A stretch of DNA of 59,892 nt from Thermoplasmata archaeon (GTDB taxonomy: Archaea; Thermoplasmatota; Thermoplasmata; Lutacidiplasmatales; UBA184), in assembly GCA_021801925.1 (NCBI GenBank), contig JAKABH010000005.1, positions 1 through 59,892 of the forward strand, given 5' to 3'. The notes under the pieces were generated by a model that had not been told where the DNA came from, searched no databases, and worked only from the letters and a program-made list of their open reading frames with translations. The translations under genes were made by a program, and so were the position numbers. Below, piece by piece: positions 56,045 to 58,405 of this stretch; position 1 is the stretch's first letter, and every line of letters starts with the position of its first letter.

Positions 56045-57342
56045 CCCCGGCGCGCCGGGGTCCGCCGACGGGGGCGCGGCCGCGAACCCGGCCGGCCGGC
56101 CGGGCTCCCCCCGAGGGCGGCGAGATCTCCAGCGAGCTCGTCGAGCAGGGCGCCCGCGAACTCGGGCTTCGGCGCCCGGATCCAATGACGTTCCCCGGGA
56201 CGGGGAAGTACGAGGGCCTCGGTCCGGTCGCTTCCCATCGTCCGGGCGTCGTTGGCGACGACCCAGTCGGCCCGGGTCTCCGTCCGCAGCCGCTCGGCCT
56301 TCCGCTCGAGCTCCGCCGGCGAAAGGCCCGCGTCGAGCTTGAACGCCACCAGGCGGGTCGGGGACGGGGCGAGCCGGCGAAGCTCCGGCAGGAGCTTGGG
56401 CGCCGGGCGGAGCTCGAGCGAGAGACCGGCCGCGGCCCGCGAGTCGATCTTGCCCGGTCTCGCATCGAGCGTGAAATCCGGCAGCGCCGCCGGCACGAGC
56501 ACGGCGCCGGCCCGGCGGAGCACGGCGCGCCGCCGCCGGGCCAGGGCCCGAAGGTCCTCGATCGACCGCCACGGATAGGTCGGGATCCACGGGGGGATCG
56601 CCACCTGCATCGCCCCGGCCCAGAGCTCCACCGCGGCCCCCCGATAGAACGCCTGGGTCGCGAGCGCGACCGCCGAGGCCCCGGAGCTCTCGTTGGTGAT
56701 CGAACGGACCGAGTCGATCGGCTCGCGGCCCGCCCCGCCGATCACCACCGCGCCGCGCCCCGCCCACGGCCCGCGCGCGAGGCGGTGGAGCACCGCGGCC
56801 GCGACCGTCTCGGGGGCGGCGATCTTCGCCTCGCCTTCCCCGCTCGTGGCCGAGATCGAACCGACCCCCCACCGCTCGAGCCGCGCGAGACTCTCCCGCA
56901 GCGCGGGATTCTCGGCCATCTGGGCGTGCATCGCCGGGGCGACGAGCATCGGCACCTTGGCGCCGAGCGCGACGGCGGCGCACGATGTGACCGGCGTGTC
57001 GTCGATCCCGTGGGCGATCTTGGAAAGGGTGTTCGCCGTCGCCGGTGCGATGAGGTAGAGGTCGACCTGTCCCTCCCCCGGCCCCAGCAGGCTCACGTGC
57101 TCGACGGCCCCGGTCAGGCGGGTGATGGCGGGGCGGCCGGTGGCGAACTCCACCGCCTCGGCCGGGAGGATCCGCGTCGCCTCCCCGCTCATCACCGCAT
57201 CGACCTCCGCCCCGTGGCGGAGCAACTCGCGTACGATCTTCGGGATCTCGACGGCGGCGATCGACCCGGTGATGCCGATGAGGATGTGCCGGCCCTCGAG
57301 CAGTCGGCTCGTGGTCCCCCGGATGACGCGGCTCGGGTGCAT
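56041..57342 (-). CDS. coaBC: Bifunctional phosphopantothenoylcysteine decarboxylase/synthetase
   Basis: Two consecutive steps of coenzyme A synthesis: ligation of phosphopantothenate to cysteine (CoaB), then FMN-dependent decarboxylation (CoaC). The 433-residue protein begins with the flavoprotein half (LIGITGSIAAVEIPKIVREL; DLYLIAPATANTLSKIAHGI; the active-site-type His/Cys region near PAMHAQMAENPALRESLARL). The CoaB half starts near residue 195 with RGAVVIGGAGREPIDSVRSI and NESSGASAVALA, and has ADWVVANDARTM. The last 35 residues are Arg/Pro-rich. ATG 57342 has a TATA-like CCCTATTAGG 33 bp upstream. The convergent regulator gene overlaps its tail by 4 bp. Confidence 0.93.
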   Translation of the reverse strand: MHPSRVIRGTTSRLLEGRHILIGITGSIAAVEIPKIVRELLRHGAEVDAVMSGEATRILPAEAVEFATGRPAITRLTGAVEHVSLLGPGEGQVDLYLIAPATANTLSKIAHGIDDTPVTSCAAVALGAKVPMLVAPAMHAQMAENPALRESLARLERWGVGSISATSGEGEAKIAAPETVAAAVLHRLARGPWAGRGAVVIGGAGREPIDSVRSITNESSGASAVALATQAFYRGAAVELWAGAMQVAIPPWIPTYPWRSIEDLRALARRRRAVLRRAGAVLVPAALPDFTLDARPGKIDSRAAAGLSLELRPAPKLLPELRRLAPSPTRLVAFKLDAGLSPAELERKAERLRTETRADWVVANDARTMGSDRTEALVLPRPGERHWIRAPKPEFAGALLDELAGDLAALGGSPAGRPGSRPRPRRRTPARRG

Positions 57343-57370
57343 GGCAACCCGCCGGGTCACCCGCGCGGGG

Positions 57371-57407
57371 CCTAATAGGGACCCGGGGGGGCGCGGGCGC
57401 CTTAAAG
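57371..57407. promoter_or_regulatory. Divergent TATA boxes of coaBC and the HAD gene
   Basis: CCCTATTAGG on the minus strand (57371-57380) is 33 bp from the coaBC ATG at 57342. CTTAAAG on the plus strand (57401-57407) is centred 27 bp before ATG 57431 of the HAD gene. The distance supports leaderless starts for both. Confidence 0.5.
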
Positions 57408-57430
57408 CGGAGGCGGGGATGGGCCGGTCG

Positions 57431-58297
57431 ATGCCGCACGGCGCCCGCCGCCCCGCCCCGTCCCCGCCGTCCTCCGAAGCGCCGCCGCTCGTTGAGGAGC
57501 CCCTCCCGCTGGTCCGCTCGACGAGCCAGTTCGCCGAGGTCGCCCGACCGGTCCGCGCCCCCCGACCCCCGGTCGCCCCCCGGCTCGTGGAGCGCGGCGT
57601 GGTGGTGTTCGATCTGGACGGCACGATCCTGGACGACATGGGCCTGGTCAGCGCCGTTGCGGGGGACCTCCTCGAGAAGGCGTTCGGCACGCCGGCCGAG
57701 GAAGGCCGGATCCACTACCTCGCGACGACGGGGATGCCGTTCGAGGCGCAACTGGCGCAGCTCTACCCGGGTGCGCCGCCGGCGCTCCGTAGCGAGACGG
57801 CCCGCACGTTCCACCAACGCAAGGTCACCGAGGCCTACGCACGGGCCAAACCGTTCCCGGAGGTGCCGAAGCTGTTGAAGCGCCTCGCCGGCGACCGCTG
57901 GACCCTAGCCGTCTCGACCGGGGCCGAAGGGGAGATGGCCGACCTGCTGCTCGAACGGGAGGGGCTCCGGTTCTGGTTCGAGGAGGTCCTCGGATCGGGC
58001 GACGGGACGAAACGGGAGCATCTGCAGGAGTACCGGCGTCGCTTCCCGGATCGGCCGATGTTCCTGGTCGGCGATTCGCGGTTCGACATGGAGGCGGCGC
58101 AGTCGACCCCGGGAGTCGCCGCCATCGGGCGGGCGTCGCGCGTGCCCGGCTGGACGCTGACGCCCAAGGATCTTGCCCAGTGGGGCGCCGTGTGGGCCGA
58201 CTACGAACTCGGCGGGCTCCCCGAGGCGCTCGAGCGCCTCACGCGCCCGAGCCGCCGCGGGGGGCGGCGCTCGTCCGCCCCGAAGCGGTCGGCGTAG
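57431..58297 (+). CDS. HAD-superfamily phosphatase (Gph-like)
   Basis: A 288-residue protein. After about 50 Pro/Arg-rich residues the HAD core begins: VVVFDLDGTILDDMGLVSAV (nucleophile Asp and second Asp), the Thr/Ser motif VSTGAEGEMADLLLEREGLR, then FEEVLGSGDGTKREHLQEYR with the lysine, and MFLVGDSRFDMEAAQS (the acidic pair). A cap helical domain lies at about 75-125, so it is C1-type, as in phosphoglycolate or beta-phosphoglucomutase-like enzymes. ATG 57431 is preferred over ATG 57419 because the TATA box is 27 bp upstream. Its stop codon abuts the tRNA-His gene on the other strand. Confidence 0.87.
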   Translation: MPHGARRPAPSPPSSEAPPLVEEPLPLVRSTSQFAEVARPVRAPRPPVAPRLVERGVVVFDLDGTILDDMGLVSAVAGDLLEKAFGTPAEEGRIHYLATTGMPFEAQLAQLYPGAPPALRSETARTFHQRKVTEAYARAKPFPEVPKLLKRLAGDRWTLAVSTGAEGEMADLLLEREGLRFWFEEVLGSGDGTKREHLQEYRRRFPDRPMFLVGDSRFDMEAAQSTPGVAAIGRASRVPGWTLTPKDLAQWGAVWADYELGGLPEALERLTRPSRRGGRRSSAPKRSA

Positions 58298-58405
58298 GGC
58301 CGGGACCGAGAGTCTCAGGCGACGGGGGGAGACCCCGCCGCGCTTTGAACCCGGGTCGAGGGATCCACAGTCCCCCAGGATAGGCCAAGCTACCCCATCC
58401 CGGCC
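58298..58405 (-). tRNA. tRNA-His (GTG anticodon) with a 32-nt intron at T-loop position 59/60
   Basis: Read on the minus strand: G(-1) at 58405 and C73 at 58298 (the tRNA-His identity pair); acceptor GCCGGGA/TCCCGGC; anticodon stem GGGGA/TCCCT with loop CTGTGGA, anticodon GUG; T-stem CCGGG/CTCGG with TTCAAA at 58344-58349. The T-loop is interrupted by 32 nt (58312-58343). Removing it gives the standard TTCAAAT loop and a 76-nt tRNA. The junctions sit in a bulge-helix-bulge: 4-bp central helix (TTCA with TGAG), bulges AA|G and AC|T, then an inner stem of 9 bp (GCGGCGGGG with CCCCGTCGC, one G-U). No CCA is encoded. The D-stem contains one mismatch. Confidence 0.85.

Follow-up and report, generated by a model that had tools for sequence, protein, structure and literature searches.

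Archaeal tRNA introns that lie away from the canonical position 37/38 have been described in Thermoproteales and other lineages, where they have bulge-helix-bulge (BHB) motifs, occur in several isoacceptors, and include 59/60 among their listed positions (PMC4090602, PMC3218864). By contrast, Euryarchaeota with an alpha4 or alpha2 splicing endonuclease (EndA) are said to carry canonical 37/38 introns only (PMC4090602), and Korarchaeum, whose homodimeric EndA is described with a specific loop, is named as the only archaeon that combines an alpha2 EndA with non-canonical introns (PMC4033280). Many tRNA introns, often at non-canonical positions, have also been reported in Atabeyarchaeia and Freyarchaeia, which are uncultured soil archaea of the Asgard group (PMC11291895), and the 59/60 junction recurs in the circularly permuted tRNAs of Thermofilum and Cyanidioschyzon (PMC3218864). 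The gene described here, from a soil archaeon, is a tRNA-His interrupted at this same junction. It lies on the reverse strand of the window (the whole stretch of 59,892 nucleotides that was analyzed), and its parts are as follows.

58298-58405, minus strand: unspliced tRNA-His(GTG), including the encoded G(-1) and C73, without an encoded CCA (R1, a model of intron-bearing tRNAs, 96 bits, E 2e-21)
58344-58405, minus strand: 5′ exon, G(-1) to A59, near-invariant across 101 loci
58312-58343, minus strand: predicted intron of 32 nt between positions 59 and 60
58298-58311, minus strand: 3′ exon, U60 to C73
58366-58368, minus strand: anticodon GTG
58350-58354, minus strand: T stem, 5′ strand (49-53), whose partner across the intron is 58306-58310
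58306-58310, minus strand: T stem, 3′ strand (61-65)
58346-58349, minus strand: central BHB helix, exon strand UUCA (54-57)
58314-58317, minus strand: central BHB helix, intron strand UGAG
58343-58345, minus strand: 5′ bulge AA/G, predicted cut 58344/58343
58311-58313, minus strand: 3′ bulge AC/U, predicted cut 58312/58311
58319-58341, minus strand: intron hairpin (h′), arms 58333-58341 and 58319-58327, with covarying pairs in 37 distinct tRNA-His introns
57122-58297, plus strand: ORF for a HAD-family hydrolase (start tentative), whose TAG stop adjoins the tRNA 3′ end (Pfam HAD_2, E 2.4e-13)

Removal of 58312-58343 leaves a 76-nt tRNA-His that folds into a perfect cloverleaf: its acceptor stem is unbroken, its T stem has 5 bp, and its T loop reads TTCAAAT. 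A standard tRNA is restored in this way from a gene interrupted at 59/60 and not at 37/38. An earlier note on this DNA had proposed a T-loop intron in tRNA-His, and its coordinates, GTG anticodon, G(-1):C73 pair, 32-nt insert after TTCAAA, and restored TTCAAAT loop all agree with our annotation; the proposal itself is borne out by the complete spliced form and by the parsed loci and covariation given below. As the same note had remarked, no nucleotide separates the tRNA 3′ end (58298) from the stop codon of the HAD ORF, a TAG on the opposite strand (58295-58297); among 70 distinct loci of the genus, 55 have a TAG adjoining the tRNA in this way. A second intact tRNA-His(GUG), which would have spoken against the proposal, was searched for with Rfam and at the DNA level, and none was seen in the draft genome (89 contigs, 94.7% complete).

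Standard tRNA finders handled the locus poorly. On the raw window, ARAGORN, which the earlier note had suggested as a check, returned only a misbounded tRNA-His (58328-58405), and it found nothing in the trimmed unspliced gene; given the spliced sequence, it recognized a full tRNA-His. Rfam at the gathering threshold gave no match on the window, the tRNA model scoring below threshold at the unspliced locus. Because standard finders misplace or miss such genes, lists of tRNAs compiled for these genomes will be incorrect unless intron-aware models are used.

In the unspliced RNA, aligned at the T stem, U54-U55-C56-A57 of the exon pairs with UGAG near the intron 3′ end. A 3-4-3 geometry can be drawn at the exon-intron borders, in which 3-nt bulges (A58 A59/i1 and A C/U60) flank the 4-bp helix UUCA:UGAG with its one U-G pair. 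In this drawing, the helix within the intron opens with a C-C mismatch just beyond the 5′ bulge; in the minimum-energy fold, by contrast, i1 is paired with i26 and the 5′ bulge has 2 nt. For the complete unspliced RNA, the folding energy is −59.9 kcal/mol, with a z-score of −2.2 relative to shuffled sequences. The BHB had been called strict, which is partly right for this gene: the 3-nt bulges around a 4-bp helix can indeed be drawn, with the mismatch and the minimum-energy fold as a reservation. The word applies to only some of the introns considered here because about half of them have no fourth helix pair.

The exon pattern, with a gap of 18 to 45 nt allowed between its halves, was searched against GTDB genomes and matched 86 stretches, nearly all titled Thermoplasmata archaeon and including Candidatus Lutacidiplasma silvani AcS3-62 and UBA184. 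With 86 GTDB contigs carrying the same gene, the earlier impression of a Thermoplasmatota-like genome was right, and on these sequence matches the window is assigned to Candidatus Lutacidiplasmatales within Thermoplasmatota (PMC9287336). Two GTDB records titled 'bacterium' (L095, L135) also match this archaeal pattern, and their titles look wrong. Three assemblies carry the intron-bearing gene on two contigs each (L087/L133, L091/L153, and L137/L161), through either duplication or mixed strains. A comparison with relatives, likewise suggested beforehand, found a full-length intron-bearing tRNA-His in 31 of the 37 genomes of the genus, the other six being incomplete drafts, and a DNA search revealed no intronless tRNA-His in the genus.

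Altogether, 101 loci were parsed; their exons are near-invariant, and their introns, 29 to 33 nt long, comprise 71 distinct sequences. The helix pairs of the gene covary above every shuffle and slide control, and the acceptor and T-stem pairs that span the insert are kept across loci. Within the intron hairpin, 8 of 10 pairs show changes on both sides, and no shuffle matches the observed score (37 tRNA-His introns). The BHB helix also covaries, UUCG occurring with CGAA and UUCA with UGAA. Among 26 diverse sequences, position 57 forms a G-C pair with the intron in 12 and an A-U pair in 11, and is left unpaired in 3. No shuffle reaches the observed score, and the pattern is the one expected under selection on a BHB. 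This combination of near-invariant exons, many distinct introns, and covariation above the controls indicates, at the sequence level, that the insert is not a chance feature. Of the 37 aligned tRNA-His introns, 19 retain the fourth central-helix pair (A57 with U) and 18 have lost it. Many introns that have lost it carry G at i27 and C or U at i1, which are able to pair and may represent a 3-bp form of the central helix.

The T-loop intron of tRNA-His has company in its own genome. Using Rfam and model R1, we found at least 12 tRNA genes with an intron at 59/60, namely, those for His, Arg(TCT), Arg(TCG), Asn, Ala(GGC), Gln(CTG), Gly(TCC), Asp, Glu(CTC), Ser(GCT), Ser(GGA), and Leu(TAG), each of which was properly bounded by ARAGORN only once the intron had been removed. 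They make up about a third of the roughly 37 tRNA genes counted, the census being a lower bound from model searches on a draft genome. The fourth central-helix pair is lost in 6 of these 12 introns; the motif is strict in tRNA-Gln, for instance, and relaxed in tRNA-Ala. Anticodon-loop introns also occur in this genome, for example, in tRNA-Tyr, tRNA-Leu(TAA), and tRNA-Trp; a probable tRNA-Trp(CCA) with a long anticodon-loop intron (L033, G000:C51:100-500) was scored by Rfam in its 3′ part only, below the cut-off. The tRNA-Pro(TGG) of the genome (L184, G000:C10:3-112) carries its insert not in the T loop but in the D loop, and D-loop inserts, often ending ...CTACAATGG, are present in tRNA genes of relatives (L249, L250, L266, and L277). 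Judging from sequence, such an ending could base-pair with GTAG, which is conserved in the D arm, in the manner seen in the T loop.

Model R1 gave matches at E <1e-18 in every one of the 37 genus members searched, the present genome among them. A restriction of the introns to the genus, which the E-values had suggested, was rejected because the lengths and sequences of individual genes place them in other families. Within the order and class, 59/60 introns extend to further families, and they also occur in the methanogens of the class and elsewhere in the phylum. Outside tRNA-His they measure 13 to 48 nt; those of the further families include some of only 13 nt with perfect UUCA:UGAA helices. 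A smaller model, R2, matched 40 of 147 genomes of the phylum. Matches numbered 7 to 11 per genome for the window's family; families f8 and f20 gave one or two, f23 and f41 gave several, and f19 gave none. The tested f8 and f20 genomes encode methyl-coenzyme M reductase, which marks them as methanogens of this class, most likely Methanomassiliicoccales; the gene that carries the intron is a tRNA-Arg in both families, with the anticodon TCT in f8. A tRNA-His with a T-loop intron is also present in G052 (f16) and G086 (f23), whereas in family f2 of the window's order the tRNA-His intron of both genomes (L275 and L276, in G037 and G039) is at 37/38 and not in the T loop. A tRNA-Gly of G037 has a very long anticodon-loop insert (L279), and several tRNAs of G038 (L219, L224, L227, L237, and L242) have two introns, one in the anticodon loop and one of 13 to 14 nt in the T loop.

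The genome encodes one EndA (G000:C12:10678-11481), with two PF01974 domains in one ORF, and no second PF01974 protein was found in it. The same two-domain layout is seen in relatives. The second domain keeps the catalytic Tyr, His, and Lys motifs; the architecture, whose determination the earlier note had proposed, is accordingly that of a single alpha-prime-2 enzyme, with two fused domains from one gene. We used 3p1y, the solved structure of an A. fulgidus EndA chimera bearing a grafted Crenarchaea-specific loop, for comparison. The present EndA, YGSPIGHRLELSLLEA, has no CSL- or ASL-type insertion at the 3p1y loop site, where it resembles native A. fulgidus EndA, and the CSL-type insertion is also missing from the EndA of G029, G018, G037, and G038. 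The ligase RtcB is present as well (E 4e-172), so that both cutting and joining enzymes are encoded.

It had been supposed that this genome needs an endonuclease with relaxed position specificity. An ordinary two-domain alpha-prime-2 EndA without the CSL-type insertion was found instead, and relaxed position specificity is not needed because EndA recognizes the BHB and not its position. Homodimeric EndA from Ferroplasma, also a member of Thermoplasmata, cleaves minimal BHBs as well as a BHB that was built into a hairpin of an mRNA (PMC8707768), and the Haloferax enzyme cleaves BHBs of rRNA and of a 5′ UTR (PMC7714728). Since both act on BHBs outside tRNA, a T-loop BHB should, by analogy, be within reach of an ordinary alpha-prime-2 enzyme. 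A review classes alpha-prime-2 EndA as narrow and links relaxed motifs to the CSL or ASL loop (PMC6379350); "narrow" here refers to the motif and not to the position.

We consider it very probable that the locus is a functional, single-copy tRNA-His gene with a 59/60 BHB intron spliced by EndA and RtcB. In the transcript, the T-loop UUCA (UUCG in other tRNAs) would pair near the intron 3′ end beside the T stem to form the BHB, the single alpha-prime-2 EndA would cut both bulges, and RtcB would join the exon halves, restoring the UUCAAAU loop and a tRNA fit for translation. What the exon contributes to the motif is UUCRAA, which hardly any other part of tRNAs surpasses in constancy, and an intron ending in YGAA-A-N would presumably fit nearly any tRNA at 59/60. 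The sharing of this T-loop sequence by nearly all tRNAs would account for the recurrence of 59/60 introns in at least 12 genes.

Two points speak against splicing by this enzyme. One is the C-C mismatch with which the intron helix of this gene begins; the other is the relaxed motif, the fourth pair being lost in about half of the tRNA-His introns and half of the genome's own set, although the EndA type is described as narrow (PMC6379350). This relaxation is the ground for supposing that an unrecognized extra subunit or nuclease assists alpha-prime-2 EndA, a reading in keeping with the reviews, given that the CSL or ASL loop is missing here. We regard it as very unlikely, as the genome holds no other PF01974 protein, many relatives have strict motifs, and there are reports of homodimeric EndA cleaving BHL-like motifs (PMC8707768; for the A. 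fulgidus enzyme on full-length pre-tRNA, PMC6379350).

That the insert is retained, giving tRNAs whose T loop is enlarged or whose T arm has an additional helix, is highly improbable. The minimum-energy fold would let the insert extend the T stem as a structured arm, but insert length and hairpin sequence vary freely, in tRNA-His and even more so elsewhere, while the BHB helix and bulges are conserved; furthermore, some relatives have the same isoacceptor without an insert, and the loop left after removal is always the standard UUCRAAU. The incompleteness of the draft assembly leaves gaps in which a working gene might lie, the present copy then being a degenerate tRNA-His broken by an insertion. 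This is scarcely credible beside the near-invariant exons of the interrupted gene at 101 loci, the pairs kept across its insert, and a genus in which the DNA search found no intronless tRNA-His.

The kind of intron is already known, and it is the lineage and place that are unexpected. Relative to the Thermoproteales type, the host belongs to Thermoplasmatota and has a one-protein alpha-prime-2 EndA rather than a heteromeric enzyme, and a single position predominates, the genome having shown few non-canonical sites besides it. Korarchaeum shares the homodimeric enzyme, but the loop described for its EndA has no counterpart in the present one. In Atabeyarchaeia and Freyarchaeia, 92-95% of tRNA genes have introns, often several (PMC11291895), compared with about a third here, in the T loop; and unlike in the permuted tRNAs, the gene halves are in normal order. 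The canonical 37/38 introns of Euryarchaeota have the same motif and presumably the same enzyme, differing in position. Our literature search found no paper on T-loop introns in Thermoplasmatota, although database listings, for example, of methanogen cases, may exist, and a word search of the paper on Lutacidiplasmatales (PMC9287336) found no mention of introns.

In the reviews, tRNA introns at non-canonical positions go with an EndA that is heteromeric or bears a loop (PMC4090602, PMC4033280), and the trait is widespread in this phylum; the abundance of 59/60 introns alongside a loop-less alpha-prime-2 EndA contradicts them, and the present lineage is an exception. The interest of the finding lies in the number of these introns beside such an enzyme and in the series of motifs from strict to relaxed, a natural range of substrates for one enzyme that makes the EndA co-evolution rule directly testable. 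Tentatively, the T-loop introns may be a spreading Thermoplasmatota family that moves between tRNA genes, as the complementarity of the intron 3′ end to the universal T-loop sequence might allow, and that plain alpha-prime-2 EndA tolerates, in Lutacidiplasmatales including the 3-bp form. If so, intron proliferation would be separated from the EndA loop that is said to permit it.
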